Origin: a virus
IMG/VR virus record: IMGVR_UViG_3300030102_004551
Span: 11,784 to 36,522 of that record
DNA: 24,739 bases
Strand: one strand, 5' to 3'
The notes below the pieces were generated by a model. It was given only the letters and a program-made list of their open reading frames with translations, had not been told where the DNA came from and did no database searches. The translations under genes were made by a program, and so were the position numbers. This document shows, piece after piece, positions 1-13,600 of the stretch; positions within the stretch are counted from its first letter, which is position 1; every line of letters begins with the position of its first letter.

Positions 1-140
1 TCGATAAGGCTTGGAGTGTTGTGAAGGAAGATTTGTTTAGGTGTAAGAAGTGCAACCATGTTTGGGATGCTCATGAAGGCGATAATCCCGAAGATGGGTC
101 GTGTCCTAAATGTGGCAGTTTTCATGGCGAAGAGGTGTGA
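1..140 (+). CDS. Tagged zinc-ribbon protein, 5' end outside window (partial)
   Basis: The frame is open from the window edge to the TGA at 138-140. The first complete codons read DKAWSVVKED, and the two bases before them (tc) fit the end of a TTC or TTT-type codon for Phe, so the protein carries the F-D-x-A-W-x-x-x-K segment shared by five other proteins here. Behind it lie two CxxC pairs (CKKC at visible residues 14-17 and CPKC at 34-37) separated by 16 residues, a typical small zinc-ribbon arrangement that could bind nucleic acid or protein. Only 45 residues are visible; if the tag is at the N-terminus as elsewhere, little more than the start codon is missing. The next gene begins 4 bases downstream. 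The function is unknown; the zinc ribbon is read from the cysteine spacing alone. Confidence 0.8.
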   Translation, partial: DKAWSVVKEDLFRCKKCNHVWDAHEGDNPEDGSCPKCGSFHGEEV

Positions 141-143
141 TGA

Positions 144-341
144 ATGTCAGCATTCGATGTAGCATGGGAGATAGCGAAGGGGGACAATGTTCCCACCAAC
201 CCCTCCCTATGGTCACAGGCCAAATCCAAGGCCAAATCCAAGTTCAAGGTCTATCCCTCTGCTTATGCCAACGGTTGGGCCGCTAAGTGGTATAAGTCCA
301 AAGGCGGCGGTTGGAAGAAGAAGGGCAAGGGTAAGAAATGA
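144..341 (+). CDS. Small basic tagged protein (65 aa)
   Basis: It begins MSAFDVAWEIAKGD, a clear copy of the shared N-terminal segment. The rest is lysine-rich with aromatic residues: a KSKAKSKFKV stretch, then VYPSAYANGWAAKWYK, then a Gly/Lys tail GGGWKKKGKGKK. I have seen the YPSAYANGxAxKxY pattern in small viral proteins of unknown function, but I cannot name the family with certainty. The strong positive charge suggests binding to nucleic acid or to an acidic partner, which is inference. The ATG is preceded by GAGGTG about 6 bases upstream. The stop overlaps the next start (ATGA at 338-341), so the two genes are probably translationally coupled. Confidence 0.85.
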   Translation: MSAFDVAWEIAKGDNVPTNPSLWSQAKSKAKSKFKVYPSAYANGWAAKWYKSKGGGWKKKGKGKK

Positions 342-703
342 GTTTTTTCGATTCTGCTTGGGACATAGCGAAGAACGGTTTCAAGAAGATGAAAGGAGTT
401 CATTTCACTCTTCCAAGAGGCGAGATGAAAGTTCTTCAGGCTGAAGATAAGGATTACAAAAGAGGTGTTCTTGTCGAATTATTGAAAGACGGAGGATACG
501 AAGTTGCTTATTGGTATGACAAGTTTGAGGTTTTTCCAGTCGAAGTCATAGTCGATGGCAAGTCGATAAAGAAAGATGGTAGGAAAGTTATACTAAAGTT
601 CCATCCGAAGTTGGAAGAGGCAAGGGGAAAATCAAAGGATCAGATAAGGGAGGCTCAAAAGGATATGAAAGACTCAGGTTCGGGAGGTGAAAAGGATGAT
701 TGA
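338..703 (+). CDS. Tagged hypothetical protein (121 aa)
   Basis: It starts MSFFDSAWDIAKNGF, the shared N-terminal segment, with a four-base ATGA overlap with the preceding gene. Residues about 30-90 look like a small mixed alpha/beta domain with alternating hydrophobic and charged residues (VLVELLKDGGYEVAYW, then VFPVEVIVDGKSI and KVILKFHP). The last 30 residues are a charged, probably disordered or helical tail ending GSGGEKDD. I recognise no family. The 3' end overlaps the 5' end of the next gene, whose ribosome-binding site lies inside this gene's last codons. Apart from the tag it shares nothing obvious with its neighbours. Confidence 0.85.
   Translation: MSFFDSAWDIAKNGFKKMKGVHFTLPRGEMKVLQAEDKDYKRGVLVELLKDGGYEVAYWYDKFEVFPVEVIVDGKSIKKDGRKVILKFHPKLEEARGKSKDQIREAQKDMKDSGSGGEKDD
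683..690 (+). promoter_or_regulatory. Strong Shine-Dalgarno site GGAGGTGA
   Basis: GGAGGTGA lies inside the 3' end of the 121-aa gene, five bases before the ATG at 696. It decides that ATG as the start of the 206-aa protein over the in-frame GTG at 687, which lies inside the site itself. The same octamer precedes the tagged gene that starts at 4074 on the other strand. Confidence 0.75.
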
Positions 704-1316
704 AAAACCAGTCTCCGATATCGTCTCTAAGGACCTCAGGCGATGGTTCAAGGAGAAGTGGGTCGATGTATCTCGTAAAGACAAGGACGGCAAGCATCCT
801 CCTTGTGGTAGAGACGAGGCTAAGACGGATAGTAAGGGATACCCTAAATGCAGACCATCTAAGAAAGTCAGTGATAAAACGCCAAAGACAACAAGGGGAA
901 TGAGTGCCAAAGACAAGAAGGCGGCTACTAGAAGAAAGAGAAGCAAGCCTCAGGGTGTGGGGGGCAAGCCGACCATGGTCAAGTCAACGATCTGTGATTG
1001 TGACACATGCAACACATTAACCAAGGCCATGCTCATGAAGGGTAAGAAAAAAGACAAGCCCTTCCACGGGTACAACCCGAAGAAGCACAGTCGAAAGGGT
1101 GGCCTGAATGCCGCTGGTCGTGCCAAGTTCAAGAGAGAGACTGGAGCCAATCTGAAGCCTCCTGTCACAGAGAAGCCATCTACATTGAAACCCGGATCAA
1201 AGAAAGCAAAGAGACGAAAGTCATTCTGTGCTAGGATGTCTGGTGTTAAAGGACCAACCAGCAAAGGCGGAAAACTCACACCGAAAGGTGCGGCACTGAA
1301 AAGGTGGAATTGTTAA
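696..1316 (+). CDS. Two-domain basic protein, DUF5872-like plus DUF6321-like (206 aa)
   Basis: Two modules can be read. The first (about residues 8-90) has RRWFKEKWVDV at 15-25, Cys37 and Cys52 in PPCGR and YPKCRP contexts, then MSAKDKKAATRRKRS; it resembles the DUF5872 family of small viral proteins. The second (about 130-206) has GGLNAAGRAKFKRETG at 135-150, KRRKSFCARMSG at 173-183 and the C-terminal RWNC; it resembles DUF6321, which I know from many marine phages. Both assignments are from memory, not a search. Between them is a CDCDTC cluster (100-105) that could hold a metal. The protein is very basic throughout and lacks the F-D-x-A-W tag. Its stop overlaps the next start (TAATG at 1314-1318). 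Function is unknown; binding to nucleic acid is plausible from the charge. Confidence 0.85.
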   Translation: MIEKPVSDIVSKDLRRWFKEKWVDVSRKDKDGKHPPCGRDEAKTDSKGYPKCRPSKKVSDKTPKTTRGMSAKDKKAATRRKRSKPQGVGGKPTMVKSTICDCDTCNTLTKAMLMKGKKKDKPFHGYNPKKHSRKGGLNAAGRAKFKRETGANLKPPVTEKPSTLKPGSKKAKRRKSFCARMSGVKGPTSKGGKLTPKGAALKRWNC

Positions 1317-1543
1317 TGACAAGTTTTGAGAAAGCATGGAACATATTGAAAGATGACGAAAGCATGGCATCAGCCAAGAAAAAATTGATTGATTGTCTAA
1401 AGAAAGAAGGTGGAGCGGCTGGATTAGATATGTGCTGCAAGGCTACTGGAATGGATATGAATGATTGCAAGAAACTCATTAACTCCATGGACAATGTGAA
1501 GATGCACAAGCATGGCGATGTTATACTGATGGACGGATTGTGA
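1316..1543 (+). CDS. Small tagged cysteine-containing protein, possibly HTH-like (75 aa)
   Basis: It starts MTSFEKAWNILKDDES, a copy of the shared segment. The ATG overlaps the previous stop and has AGGTGG about 7 bases upstream. The body is helical in appearance: AKKKLIDCLKKEGGAAGLDM, CCKATGMDMNDCKKLINSM, then VKMHKHGDVILMDGL. Two amphipathic helices joined by a Gly-rich turn and followed by a short beta-like end resemble a miniature winged helix-turn-helix, but this is a guess from pattern. Four cysteines occur within about 25 residues and could bind metal. The stop TGA overlaps the ATG of a stunted 8-codon ORF. No family recognised. Confidence 0.83.
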   Translation: MTSFEKAWNILKDDESMASAKKKLIDCLKKEGGAAGLDMCCKATGMDMNDCKKLINSMDNVKMHKHGDVILMDGL

Positions 1544-1569
1544 TGACCTCATTTGACAAGATCAATTAG
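1543..1569 (+). pseudogene. Stunted tagged ORF reading MTSFDKIN then stop
   Basis: ATG at 1543 overlaps the stop of the 75-aa gene as TGATG, the coupling arrangement seen between real genes here. It reads MTSFDKIN and ends at TAG 1567-1569. The first six residues match the start of the preceding gene (MTSFEK) except for Asp in place of Glu. It is either the decayed beginning of a former tagged gene, left after a deletion or frameshift, or a tiny leader whose translation brings ribosomes to the start at 1583. A chance ORF cannot be excluded at this length. Confidence 0.4.
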
Positions 1570-1582
1570 GGAGATTTTGTCT

Positions 1583-1840
1583 ATGTTTGATGATGAATTT
1601 GAGAGGGCGTGGAAAATCATCAGGTCCGATGAGAAAGGTAAGTTCCGTGGATACTCAAAGAACACCATAGAGGGCAGGGCAGAGAAGCAAGGCAAGGCTC
1701 GCGCATGGAACAAGGCTCGCAAGGTAAAGAGAGGCAGAACCAGATTGAGGTATGCTAGGAACAAGACCCGTGGTAATGTGAGGCCGAAGATGAGAAGGCA
1801 ACTAGGCGCTGGCGGTAAGAGACAATCCGTCAGCAGATGA
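1583..1840 (+). CDS. Very basic small tagged protein (85 aa)
   Basis: From the ATG at 1583 it begins MFDDEFERAWKIIRSDEKG, so the tag is offset four residues further in than in its neighbours. An in-frame TTG at 1553 would add ten residues, but AGGGAG about 10 bases before 1583 favours the ATG. After the tag the sequence is dominated by Arg and Lys (RAWNKARKVKRGRTRLRY, NKTRGNVRPKMRRQ, GGKRQSVSR) with almost no acidic residues. This composition suits a nucleic-acid-binding or DNA-condensing virion protein, which is inference. It is the last plus-strand gene, and its stop lies one base from the end of the convergent gene. Confidence 0.82.
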   Translation: MFDDEFERAWKIIRSDEKGKFRGYSKNTIEGRAEKQGKARAWNKARKVKRGRTRLRYARNKTRGNVRPKMRRQLGAGGKRQSVSR

Positions 1841-1841
1841 T

Positions 1842-2933
1842 TCACTCATGTCCTGCATGGACATAGGTTATCTTGGCGTTGGTCGGTGTTCCAGTGTATC
1901 CAAGACTTCCATTGATGGTGACTGTCTTTCCAGATATGGTGAAGTCAGATCCCTGAACTAGGTTTGCTATGAATCTAGGAGTTCCTGTCTTGTATATCAT
2001 GACCTCAACGAGTTTGGTCGAAGCCTCATCTTGAGATCCGAGCGGCTCAAAGGCAAGAACCACATCAGTGGATGACCCGTTGTAAGATGCGGTCTTGATG
2101 GATGTCCTGTGGACTGGTGTGATCTGGTATGCTCCTCCTGACGTTGTGGGGACGTTGGCGCTGGTCGTCTGGTCGGACTGGAAGAAGAGGTGAGTCTCTC
2201 CAGCGCCATTCGGGAATGAGCCCAATCCAGTGGGGTCACGGGCGAATACGAATCCCATGTCGGTGATGGGGAGGTTGCCCGTGTTGTTGGTGATGAGGGT
2301 GTTGACGGGGCTGGTGGCGGCGTTGCTGGAGTTGATGAGGGCGGATAGCGGCAGGGGCCCCGGACGTAGGAACACACGCTTGTCGTTCACGTTGCCCACA
2401 GCGACCCCGCTGCTGTATGTTAGTCTGACAGCGGCCAGAACGATGGTCTGCTTGTCGAGGTGGGCCGATGGTGATTGGGGATAGACGCCTGATCCCGTGT
2501 TGACCTCGTTGCCGTATATCATGGCGATCTTGCCCGTGATGGCCGGATCGACATAGACCAGCAGTATCCTCTCGTAGTTGGCCCCGGTCAGGGTGGGGAG
2601 GGTGCTGGAGTTCTTTGGGAACTTGCCAGTGTGGGACGAGGAGGTGATGTCGATGGACGCAGCGCCTATCGAGTGGAACACCCCATCGAGGAGGACCGTC
2701 CCTGCTGCGATGGACAGCGTGGTGGACGAGTGGCTCACAGCGCAATTGCCCACAGTGCTGCTGTTGCGATTGCTGTCATTGATATCGTTAAGTAGAATGG
2801 GAACGACACCATTCAGAAGTCCGCGTTCGTTGAAGTTCGTGAGGGTCGGGCTGGTCAGTATGTCCTGATCCAGAAGTCCATCGTCCTGATAACTCTGAGC
2901 AGCCCTCTCATGTCCCTCGCCTATCGTCGCCAT
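1842..2933 (-). CDS. Tail fibre or adhesin-like structural protein (363 aa)
   Basis: The protein is rich in Ser, Thr, Gly and Asn, with repeated beta-strand-like stretches typical of tail fibres and baseplate-attached adhesins. Visible blocks include NYERILLVYVDPAITGKIAM near residue 120, QTIVLAAVRLTY near 162, RVFLRPGPLPLSALI near 185, and a C-terminal FTISGKTVTINGSLGYTG that looks like a repeated beta hairpin. No collagen repeats, signal peptide or catalytic motif are seen. The ATG at 2933 overlaps the upstream stop as TAATG and has GGAGGT 7 bases before it. It is the last gene of the tail block. The role as receptor-binding or peripheral baseplate part comes from composition and position; I do not recognise the family. 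Confidence 0.8.
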   Translation of the reverse strand: MATIGEGHERAAQSYQDDGLLDQDILTSPTLTNFNERGLLNGVVPILLNDINDSNRNSSTVGNCAVSHSSTTLSIAAGTVLLDGVFHSIGAASIDITSSSHTGKFPKNSSTLPTLTGANYERILLVYVDPAITGKIAMIYGNEVNTGSGVYPQSPSAHLDKQTIVLAAVRLTYSSGVAVGNVNDKRVFLRPGPLPLSALINSSNAATSPVNTLITNNTGNLPITDMGFVFARDPTGLGSFPNGAGETHLFFQSDQTTSANVPTTSGGAYQITPVHRTSIKTASYNGSSTDVVLAFEPLGSQDEASTKLVEVMIYKTGTPRFIANLVQGSDFTISGKTVTINGSLGYTGTPTNAKITYVHAGHE

Positions 2934-3274
2934 TACCTTACCTCCATCAGAACATCGACCCTGACCTCATTGTTTGATGTCTTGTCGATAGGCATGAACG
3001 TGGCCCTGAATGCAGGGGTGTCGAGGGCGGTGTCGCCATGGAGGACGATCTCCTTGAGCGTCTCCGATGATGTCTCGGACGTGGTGAAGACACCGGACAC
3101 GGATACTGTCCTGTCGTCTATCTTGGTGACAGACGGTGTGATGGTTATCTGGGGGCTACCCGCGCCCCCGTCCCTGCTGGACGCCTCTCCCCCACTCGAC
3201 CCCAGCGTCATCCTTGTGACGAGTGTGGATAGATGGTCTGCCAATGCTGACTTGAGGGAGTCGAGAACAGGCAT
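2933..3274 (-). CDS. Small baseplate or fibre-adaptor-like protein (113 aa)
   Basis: The start at 3274 (MPVLDSLKSALADHL) is chosen because its ATG overlaps the upstream stop as TGATG and GGAGG lies about 9 bases before it; a longer frame to 3313 would run into the upstream gene. An N-terminal amphipathic helix (residues 3-22) and a Gly/Ser linker precede a beta-rich part. The C-terminal half (VSVSGVFTTSETSSETLKEI, then FRATFMPIDKTSNNEVRVDV) resembles a pattern I know from phage tail and collar proteins, in which a strand ending FxPIxKT is followed by alternating hydrophobic residues. A role connecting fibres to the baseplate is likely from this and from its place beside a fibre-like gene, but is not proven. 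Confidence 0.78.
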   Translation of the reverse strand: MPVLDSLKSALADHLSTLVTRMTLGSSGGEASSRDGGAGSPQITITPSVTKIDDRTVSVSGVFTTSETSSETLKEIVLHGDTALDTPAFRATFMPIDKTSNNEVRVDVLMEVR

Positions 3275-4074
3275 CAGTATTCCTCCATGTCGCTGAGTTG
3301 AGTTGTCAACCATCCTCTTCTTTGTGGCTCAGGATATTTTGCCTCATGTTCTAGTAGCGATCTAAGCCTCTCATTTTGATCCTGTTCATACTCCAAGATC
3401 CCCTCTGGTCCGATCCTGTATGTCTGTTCGGGGAACAAGGGAGGACCGCTTACTTGCACCTGACCCTTGCTGCGTTGACCCCTCGCACTTGCAGCAGCCG
3501 CTTCATCCAAAGCAGTTTCTAGTGTTTCACGATCTGTGATTCCTGCATCCCTAATTGCTCTAACTAAACTTGCCCTTTCTAATTCATCTAACAGTTCATC
3601 CTTGCCGGATTGAAGAAAGGACGATTCAAAGTCTCTTAGAGGATCTGAGAAGTCTCCAACTTCATAATCTATTCTAGGAGGGACCATAATTTTCCCATCC
3701 CTTACATCTTTCTTGAATTTAGCAGCATCCATCAACGCTCTCATTGTTGGAATGTATTCTCCAGACAGAGGGTCGTATTCAACTGAAGATCGGAACTTAT
3801 CGCTGTAAAAATCATCCTCAGGACCTCCCATTTCTCGATAGTTTGATGTCTCATACCCCCTACTTGAATCGATACCATATCTATCTCCTGTCCTTGGGTT
3901 AATGTTTGGATCATTGTCAAAGGGATACATGAAACTAGAAAAGTGAGGGATCCTAGAACCTCTGAATGCCAGATTGGCATCTTCATCGAAATATGATGGT
4001 GGTCGTCCAATTGGACTTGGTATTTTAAAATCGACATCTTTGACGAGATCCCAAGCCTTACTGAATACGTTCAT
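3274..4074 (-). CDS. Tagged protein inside the tail operon (266 aa)
   Basis: It starts MNVFSKAWDLVKDVDF, the same N-terminal segment as the plus-strand small proteins. The ATG at 4074 is favoured by GGAGGTGA seven bases upstream, inside the last codons of the previous gene. The body is acidic and low in hydrophobic core: residues about 20-110 are rich in Pro, Asp, Tyr and Arg (FRGSRIPHFSSFMYPFDND) and look disordered, 150-200 is helical (ELLDELERASLVRAIRDAG, TLETALDEAAAASARG), and the end is charged. I recognise no family. Base composition is more AT-rich than in the giant genes next to it. Its location among baseplate genes suggests a virion-associated role, which in turn hints at what the tag may do. 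Confidence 0.82.
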   Translation of the reverse strand: MNVFSKAWDLVKDVDFKIPSPIGRPPSYFDEDANLAFRGSRIPHFSSFMYPFDNDPNINPRTGDRYGIDSSRGYETSNYREMGGPEDDFYSDKFRSSVEYDPLSGEYIPTMRALMDAAKFKKDVRDGKIMVPPRIDYEVGDFSDPLRDFESSFLQSGKDELLDELERASLVRAIRDAGITDRETLETALDEAAAASARGQRSKGQVQVSGPPLFPEQTYRIGPEGILEYEQDQNERLRSLLEHEAKYPEPQRRGWLTTQLSDMEEY

Positions 4075-10624: not shown

Positions 10625-13600
10625 TCACCACACCGTCTTTGCGTTGCCTATCTCTGTCATCTCTGCGAATGTCAGGACTCGATTATGTATTGCCAGTTCT
10701 GATATCTGCATGTTGGCAGCGTGAATGGGGTTGGATGATGAAGTCACGGTTGTGCTTCCAGAAGAGTCCTTTCCTATCAAGAGAGTCTTGTTCGCTCCAC
10801 TGTTGAAATTAGAGTTGAGGATTGAATTAAAAGACACGTCGCCCGAACCTGAGGATCTCATGCTACTCGCTACCAATGGATTTCTCAGAAGACTAGCGCC
10901 AACCATGACAAGACCGTTCGTCGGGGTTGTTCCGCCACCATATGCAGATGGTATGGTGGCTCTCGCATTCACCGCTGAAAAGTCAGTGAAACCGACCATA
11001 GTAGCGACTTTTGATGTCGTTGAGTCTGCTTCGTCATCGTTGTCAAGATCGGCCACTGGCGAGGTAAAGTTGTCAATTGGACCGATATACAGTTTGTTCT
11101 TGGATGGGTGTGCGCCATGGGTAAAACCAACGAAGATCCAATCGTTCGTAGGGAGTAGCAAGTAATTATCTTCATCTTCTTGTTCTGTGTCCGTTTCAAT
11201 GTTCTGATTGGCAGCGAAAGACACGACTTGGTTCGACCCTCCATATCCCATGAATGAGAGATGCTGCCTGTTGGTGGTGTTGGTCGATGCGTATCCGACG
11301 TGCAGACCGAAGTATTGACTGTTGAGATATCCAGATATTATCGGTCCATGCATGATGTTTCCTTTGATGAAGCATGTGATTGAGAAATCCGCTCTTGGAT
11401 CAAATCCATTCAAAGGCCCGTATTCTGGGACAACTGCTGAACTGAGATAGTCGGCAGTCGATACGACTGGATAGCCAGTGCTGCTGTCGAACAAGAGGGC
11501 TTTGGATGTCGAGTCAACCGAGTTGGCAGGGCCATTGCTTGAACTCTGAGCAGCCGATGCAGTCAGCCTGAGCGATGACCCATACAAGTCGTCTGTTATC
11601 TCCTGTGCCCTTGTGAATGAAGATCCAGATATCGTGTCGTTCATCCTCACATACAGAAGGCATCTTGGAACGATGTCCCCACTGCTGTCAACCTCCATCT
11701 TGTTGTGGATGCCTCTCATGGTATTGTCGTTGATGGTGTCATCATCGGTTATGTCAGTGAAGTCAAGAACAGCGGATGCAGTGCTTACCTCATGCAGATT
11801 CTGGAAGCCTGAGAATCCCGTTGGCCCCTTGGACAAGAAATGCTTGTATTCGCCGGAGTAGTCATTCGATGTCCCGTCGCTGATGTCGAACACCGTTCCT
11901 GTGTGTCCCCCTGCAAAGAAGACGATGGCCTCAGTATCGATCAAAGGATCTATGATTTCAATCTCTACGCCGTCCAATGGAGCGTCACTGGTGTTGTGAA
12001 TCGCTCTAGCAAATTCCGCTGGGTTCCCTCTGGGCGTGACATTCCTCAAGAAAACGCAGTTGGAACCTATATGCTGGTCGTTGTTATACACACCATCGTG
12101 TTTCAATGTAGATATCTTCTCAAATGACGCCAATTGTCCATTGATCCTGATCACGCCACCGTTGTTGTCTGACCTCTTGCTGTGCCTCAAAGCGTGATCC
12201 AACGCCTTCTTCTCGACGGCTATATGGTTTATCGTGGTCGATATACTGCCGAAAACGGGATCAACCATAGCAGGGGGGCTTGAGTTGTCGATCATCTGTG
12301 GTGTGCCCACTGTGTTGATCCTGAGTATTCCCCCTATCCCGTCATACGACCTGACAGCCGATATCGATCCTTGTTGCAGAACCTGACCATGTGGTGCGCC
12401 CTTAAGCACAGACATGGGTGCGAACGTCTTTCCATCCTCAGAGATAGGGAGAGGGGCGGGGAACGAGTTGGGGGCGTAGGACCGACTGTTCGTTGCAAGC
12501 AAACCGCCCACGCCGATTATAGATGCAGGCCTGTATGGATAGGGCGTCCTATTCCTCAACCTGATGCAGAAGTTCCTTCCGCTTGCACCCGGCACTGTGC
12601 TGTGGATCACGATGGTTCTGCCCTTCTCTCCCTCCACGCTCTCGACCTCTTTGCCGGGATACGCCCTGACATATCCCATGTGAGTCCCTGTCTTGGTGTC
12701 GCCAGCGGTTGCAGGGAAGATGGCCGGGGGATCGAAGGCGCTTCCTCCATCAGCGTTCTTAGCCAGAGGATGACCTGCCATGTTGATTCTCCTAATGACT
12801 TCATTGAATGCGCCTTCAAACTCGTTTATTCGATTCGATATATCACTGAAGTCTATCGATTGTGGTCGTAAGAATTCAAGGGCAGAGGCATCAGACTTCT
12901 TCCCTTTGAGAAGAAGATGGGCTGTCTTGCACTCAAGGGGAAGTATGTTGGTCCTGTCATTGAATGAGTCATACAACTCAAACGGATCAAATACCAAGCC
13001 CTCCATGTTGGGCCCATCTCTGATGAGGATTCTGTTTGAGTTCTGTGGATCGACATGCACCCTGTCTGAGGGTAGTCCAAGGCAGTTTCTCACTGCTGTT
13101 ATTATCTGTGAATGAACGGACGTGGAAGATGGATCGAATATGATGTCAGGCTCACTGCCCCCTCCGTATGCACCCTCAGATGCAATTAGGTATCCTCCTA
13201 GAACCACGGTCATTCCGACTGATATGTTAGATGACACATCCAAGGTGGAACGTGTTGGATAACTATTGGAATAGGTCTGCTCATATGGATTCCATAGGGT
13301 TGTGATGTTGATCCTGTTTGTCGTCCCTGAGAGAGTCGCCTTGGCGATCATACCTGTCTTGGCGTATGTCCCGACGCCCTGACCTATGGTGATATAGAAC
13401 GTCGATGACAATCCGGTTGAGTCCCCTCGCTCCCCTGTCGAGGCGACGAAGGCAGTCCAATCATCGACATCGATGTAAGCGTCACTTGAATCGACGGCAG
13501 TGACCACTGCTTGAACGGATGGCCGTTGGCATAGTATGTAGTGAGCGGCGTTGTTGTTGACATGCAACTCATCCAGTTTGTCCGTGGTTTCTATCGATGA

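Follow-up and report, generated by a model that had tools for sequence, protein, structure and literature searches.

A conserved N-terminal tag on unrelated proteins of marine viruses as a candidate capsid-targeting propeptide

Background

Cargo-loading propeptides are known from a few coliphages. Here, we analyzed a 12-residue N-terminal tag carried by otherwise unrelated viral proteins (hereafter, carriers). It was noticed in a window of 24,739 nucleotides, which is the whole stretch of DNA analyzed and covers positions 11,784 to 36,522 of the IMG/VR virus record IMGVR_UViG_3300030102_004551. This 36,522-base record is a fragment without head genes, so the tests involving head genes were made in relatives.

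In phage T4, capsid-targeting sequences (CTS) are N-terminal propeptides of 10-19 residues that direct internal proteins without mutual similarity to the head; the prohead protease removes these propeptides. The cut, made by gp21, falls after Glu, and the T4 ADP-ribosyltransferase Alt is a head protein cleaved by the same protease (PMC9026906). In phage P1, an N-terminal signal of DarB, longer than 9 residues and at most 30, is enough for a foreign protein to be taken into the capsid (PMC9024508). In phage HK97, the prohead protease cuts the major capsid protein (MCP) at K103/S104 (PMC10275583).

The tag analyzed here resembles the T4 CTS: it is a short N-terminal segment on unrelated proteins, with early hydrophobic residues and a putative cut site at its end, in viruses that encode a prohead protease. 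As in T4, the predicted head cargo includes an ADP-ribosyltransferase (ART), here ART-like and marginal, and the cargo set varies between relatives. Unlike the T4 CTS, it has an F4-A7-W8-K12 sequence, an apparent cut after Lys instead of Glu, predicted archaeal hosts, and up to 17 carriers per genome; its carriers form about 190 cargo clusters, compared to a handful in T4. Like the P1 DarB signal, it is N-terminal and would direct proteins into the capsid; in contrast to that signal, it recurs across many cargo clusters and its conservation stops at Lys. Lys at the apparent P1 position is shared with HK97, and the MCPs of the tagged lineage keep K-A-D where the homology to halovirus MCPs begins; the HK97 site, in contrast, removes the MCP delta domain and, to our knowledge, is not a shared cargo tag. 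We consider it probable that the tag is a cleavable capsid-targeting propeptide, similar to the T4 CTS, for exchangeable virion cargo.

Results

At the sequence level, the tag follows the consensus M-[TS]-A-F-[DE]-x-A-W-x-[VIL]-[VLA]-K and occupies the protein start. We searched its F-[DE]-x-A-W core in DNA as the pattern TTYGANNNNGCNTGG, with the reversed pattern as a control. The 36,522-base record presented eight matches (single strand) and none for the control, and the 41 records first examined presented 221 against one, with up to 17 per record. Among 853 predicted proteins from 14 records, the motif appeared 109 times in the first 30 residues, whereas 400 permuted motifs gave a mean of 0.01 and a maximum of 2. 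The reversed and permuted controls rule out a chance origin, and the excess at N-termini that the earlier note expected was present.

Scanning IMG/VR retrieved 43 stretches with the strict DNA pattern and at least 120 with a pattern anchored at the start codon; at least 445 distinct carriers were collected from all loci. The motif lies within eight residues of the start in 417 of the 445 collected carriers, and F is the fourth residue in 323. The codons of the conserved residues vary freely (TTT 221 and TTC 196 for Phe; GCT, GCA, or GCG for Ala; AAA 228 and AAG 185 for Lys). Therefore, the peptide is the conserved element, as had been proposed for the window, and a DNA-level signal is ruled out. 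The strict pattern undercounts carriers, since relaxed tags (SKIFNTTWEIMK and NKIFDITWNVMK) occur in the neighboring proteins at L112:12547-13236.

When 117 carrier representatives were aligned, the mean column identity was 4% and the only invariant columns were F4, A7, W8, and K12, an invariance limited by the search pattern, which also demanded these residues. Since K or R had been demanded at the last position, the scan was repeated requiring only F[DE].AW: position 12 was K in 96% of cases, R in 1%, and E in about 1%. This strong preference for K over R fits a protease P1 residue better than a simple charge. The cluster-weighted information content stays high between T2/A3 and K12; after the 4.3 bits of Lys12, it falls to 0.6 and then to about 0.2 bits. 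One carrier was modeled with AlphaFold2: its tag forms a helix (residues 3-12) ahead of a domain that begins at residue 15.

Outside the tag, the carriers formed 189 blastp clusters at 1e-3, 123 of them singletons. A cut-off of 0.1 gave 122 clusters, so the true number of families is smaller than 189 and still large. This diversity, together with the 4% column identity, rules out a single diverged protein family, in agreement with the earlier note. Some proteins of the largest cluster contain a YHGT motif and match KptA and PARP models weakly; for the ART-like carrier model, Foldseek ranked KptA and further ART folds highest. Matches to D12 DNA methyltransferase, HTH, and ParB-like domains and to zinc ribbons were found among the remaining carriers, as were weak matches to ASCH; many carriers are unknowns. 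A carrier query in the search for an isolate retrieved only weak matches around the catalytic motif, in Erwinia phages.

The carriers had also been suggested to be basic proteins packed with DNA, which was not supported. Among 433 carriers, the median net charge was -0.055 per residue; 53% were clearly acidic, compared to 9% clearly basic. Since acidic carriers outnumber basic ones, DNA condensation is not a role that carriers have in common, and basic DNA-binding cargo is ruled out as the rule.

Two further observations concern the cargo. Tagged D12-type DNA adenine methyltransferase and ParB-domain proteins are found at L157:3993-5657 and among the members of the A1 alignment. A carrier at L064:1392-1814 has a second, internal tag (TTPFNKSWGVVK) before a stretch whose counterpart in another virus bears the tag at its N-terminus, and this carrier looks like two tagged proteins fused.

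Regarding genomic location, gene maps of 11 records displayed a conserved head operon, flanked in most of them by a variable block of tagged genes. Further tagged genes were adjacent to TerL, after the portal gene (portal-p123), before p285 (p109-p285), and before p612 (p101-p612). In the 13 records with head genes, all 123 carriers were on the head strand; three of these records have substantial content on the other strand, where none of 24 carriers was found. In 15 further genomes, 98 of 99 tag matches were on the MCP strand, and the thermosome gene was opposite to it wherever both were located.

The head proteins themselves present comparable sites. A head-maturation protease is encoded in L057 (phrog_23555 and phrog_80), and the protease family was found in 12 records. 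A hydrophobic-x-Lys site lies near the N-terminus of the MCP (LLK↓AD), the protease ([FW]ILK↓S/E), p180 (LLxK↓A/N/Q), and p123 (LxK↓MDP), where arrows mark putative cuts. Within the first 60 residues, 51 of 121 members of head families had such a site against 14.8 from shuffles, compared to 31 of 236 against 21.3 for other genes; this excess is supportive only, since family members are not independent. All 38 MCP sequences compared keep L, L, K, and D of the site. The region of homology to halovirus MCPs starts near K-A-D, which is kept in haloviruses at 37% identity. The MCP structure model had a pLDDT of 34 and was not used to place the cut site.

Two side observations were made on head genes. 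The MCP of HVTV-1 (L195:13863-15233) has two K-A-D sites, LRKADGRI and SKADN, which may represent successive protease cuts judging from the sequence. A protein of 1,090-1,889 aa without PHROG match is encoded beside the protease gene in head operons (L057:13266-16688 and L089:4405-10074), and its L080 segment WVIQEKPEGKRVII resembles a nucleotidyltransferase/ligase motif by eye.

The tag marks one lineage of tailed ocean viruses that probably infect archaea. Tag-bearing records rich in carriers encode TerL, portal, head-maturation protease, and MCP, and the same MCP family was found in 36 of 45 tag-bearing contigs. When 50 records were picked by MCP alone, 30 contained the tag, with 72 tag matches against two for the control. 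Thus, searching viral metagenomes, as the earlier note had suggested, placed the carriers in one virus lineage with many different downstream parts. By contrast, the anchored pattern gave nine scattered single matches in 84,980 cellular genomes, near our chance estimate of about four, and a cellular origin was discarded.

Archaeal hosts are indicated because the thermosome, an ERCC4-type nuclease, and the MCP type point there. Almost all near-complete genomes encode the thermosome (22 of the 27 records searched; nearly all records above 80 kb), and the nuclease is encoded in the record of the window. A tblastn search with the MCP, aimed at an isolate, retrieved 11 matching records, all archaeal viruses; among named phages, only Druskaviridae haloviruses and viruses assigned to methanogens matched. 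The MCPs of these haloviruses (HVTV-1, HCTV-1, and HCTV-5) are homologous to that of the lineage, with 35% identity to HCTV-1. PMC13108676 describes Satyavativiridae (Poseidoniales virus P01, PP497040) as having a predicted Poseidoniales host and a Druskaviridae-like MCP. Satyavativiridae are the closest named group to the tagged viruses, for which we likewise predict Poseidoniales hosts.

Returning to the window, all six tag segments reported for its proteins were found in place and the six carriers are real; however, six was an undercount, since four more are encoded upstream in the same record (L009:10862, 11090, 11258, and ~11670). A 10-N scaffold gap ends one base before the window start. 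The first gene (3-140, plus strand) encodes a tagged zinc-ribbon protein that is a paralogue of L009:11090-11254; its 5' end is lost in the gap, leaving the tag remnant DKAWSVVK. It is followed on the plus strand by a tagged YPSAYAN / DUF5872 N-half protein (144-341; tag MSAFDVAWEIAK, 144-179) and a tagged 121-aa protein of unassigned function (338-703; tag MSFFDSAWDIAK, 338-373). Their homologues are L146:8288-8680 and L146:7336-7716, both within the head operon of that relative.

The next plus-strand gene (687-1316) encodes an untagged DUF5872/DUF6321 protein, a member of the same cassette, whose homologue is L146:7704-8291; this family was also found at the portal in G016. The homologues of all three genes (144-341, 338-703, and 687-1316) lie between the portal and MCP genes in L146. 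The plus strand continues with a Cys-containing helical protein (1316-1543; tag MTSFEKAWNILK, 1316-1351) and an Arg-rich protein with net charge +21 (1583-1840; tag FERAWKIIR within 1583-1624), both tagged; the homologue of the latter at L015:4317 starts with MEAFDRAWEIIR. Finally, a tagged acidic protein of 266 aa is encoded among tail genes on the minus strand (3274-4074; tag MNVFSKAWDLVK, 4074-4039) and has homologues in other virus records.

The three-gene cassette (YPSAYAN, FTLPRGEMKVLQ, and DUF5872/DUF6321 with KWVDVSRKDKDGKHPPCGR) lies in the head operon in L146:7336-8680 and beside replication genes in the window (144-1316). Besides, the zinc-ribbon and YPSAYAN carriers are duplicated in tandem in L009:11090-11783 and window positions 1-250, with 84% and 94% DNA identity, respectively, and with the 10-N gap between the copies. 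A PADLOC scan retrieved nothing beyond methyltransferases and weak Cas12-type matches.

Discussion

We found a common tag on unrelated cargo, linked to head genes and their strand, with a conservation edge at Lys and comparable Lys sites in head proteins. A packaging signal similar to the T4 CTS, one of the readings offered in the earlier note, is the one best supported, with packaging itself inferred; the basic DNA-packing cargo proposed with it was not. The prohead-protease site, which had been offered as a separate alternative, seems to close this element on its C-terminal side.

As a capsid-targeting propeptide, the tag would work as follows. The first 12 residues would form a short amphipathic helix whose face, made of F4, A7-W8, and V/L10-11, would dock onto something inside the prohead (scaffold/core, protease, or MCP), so that tagged proteins would be enclosed as the head assembles. 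An HK97-type head-maturation protease would then cut after Lys12, at a site with a hydrophobic residue in P3, any residue in P2, and Lys in P1; it would use sites of this type on the MCP and other head proteins as well. The released proteins may enter the next host cell together with the DNA. Fusion to the tag would let almost any protein enter the virion, which would account for the variable cassettes, in which a genome has as many as about 17 unrelated carriers.

Several points weigh against this proposal. We found no virion proteome or N-terminal sequence of these viruses that would display packaging or cleavage, and no docking partner. The portal and TerL families lack the Lys site, and the hydrophobic-x-Lys site is short. 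In the record of the window, most carriers are on the strand of the replication genes, after them and opposite to the tail genes, and the Arg-rich carrier (1583-1840) has R at the last tag position, which is rare among carriers. HVTV-1, a distant relative, differs from the tagged lineage in having no tag in the 40 kb examined. For the ART-like model, the Foldseek E-values are marginal (best 5.7e-3) and the TM-scores are about 0.4.

Two rival explanations are the strongest, and neither explains the strict Lys edge. The tag could be a linear motif by which the carriers bind a single hub in the cell, such as the host or viral RNA polymerase, the replisome, or the proteasome; the carriers would act inside the cell and not be packaged. 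Host machinery could be the target of many carriers, which are zinc ribbons, HTH proteins, or modifying enzymes, and the record of the window has carriers after replication genes on the same strand. However, a docking motif could be placed anywhere, whereas this one is tied to the start codon; carriers accompany head genes on their strand, the tag is found on head-operon proteins, and the motif is near chance in cellular genomes, so we regard a hub as unlikely. Alternatively, the tag could dock the viral thermosome, a group II chaperonin, feeding it small late proteins for folding. The frequency of this gene among the records would suit such a role, and a precedent in which the N-terminus of a T4 head protein directs proteins to GroEL appears in the reference list of PMC10052503. 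Nevertheless, the tag is missing from the large, highly conserved head and tail proteins, which a chaperonin would be most likely to fold, small zinc ribbons are frequent among the carriers, and G112 (93 kb, 12 tag matches) shows no thermosome. This role is also improbable.

Closer to the capsid-targeting propeptide, the tag may send carriers to another place in the virion, such as the portal/neck or the tail lumen, or it may stay uncleaved. Some carrier genes are indeed located among the tail genes or in the interval that separates these from the MCP gene (window 3274-4074; p101-T-p612), but most carrier clusters adjoin the head module, and the Lys edge with the parallel MCP and protease sites points to prohead maturation; we give this variant little probability. 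A nucleic-acid signal that mimics a peptide, such as a translation-initiation or leader element, would be consistent with the fixed distance from the start codon and with TTCGAYAAGGCTTGG, which is common to four carriers in the record. Against it, synonymous codons vary at every conserved residue that has more than one, and untagged neighbors are the majority in the same operons. Together with the reading as one diverged family, which the unrelated downstream parts contradict, it is highly improbable.

We lean towards a broader reading, in which one short cleavable address tag runs general cargo loading across a widespread virus lineage that infects marine archaea. Each virus would carry many exchangeable tagged effectors (ART-like, DNA-modifying, zinc-ribbon, and unknown proteins), and the proteins delivered into the host would be predictable from the tag alone. 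No earlier description of the tag was found in the literature, with most subscription journals outside our coverage.

Conclusions

If the capsid-targeting propeptide is confirmed, it would be, as far as we know, the first cargo-loading propeptide in viruses of archaea, with by far the largest cargo set. A Lys-specific logic of the head protease common to HK97 would be suggested, and the tag would be a candidate for loading proteins into capsids. The tag could then list the proteins that these viruses deliver into their hosts, and a sequence rule would single out hundreds of proteins that have no known function; these would be probable virion effectors against an uncultivated and abundant group of marine archaea.

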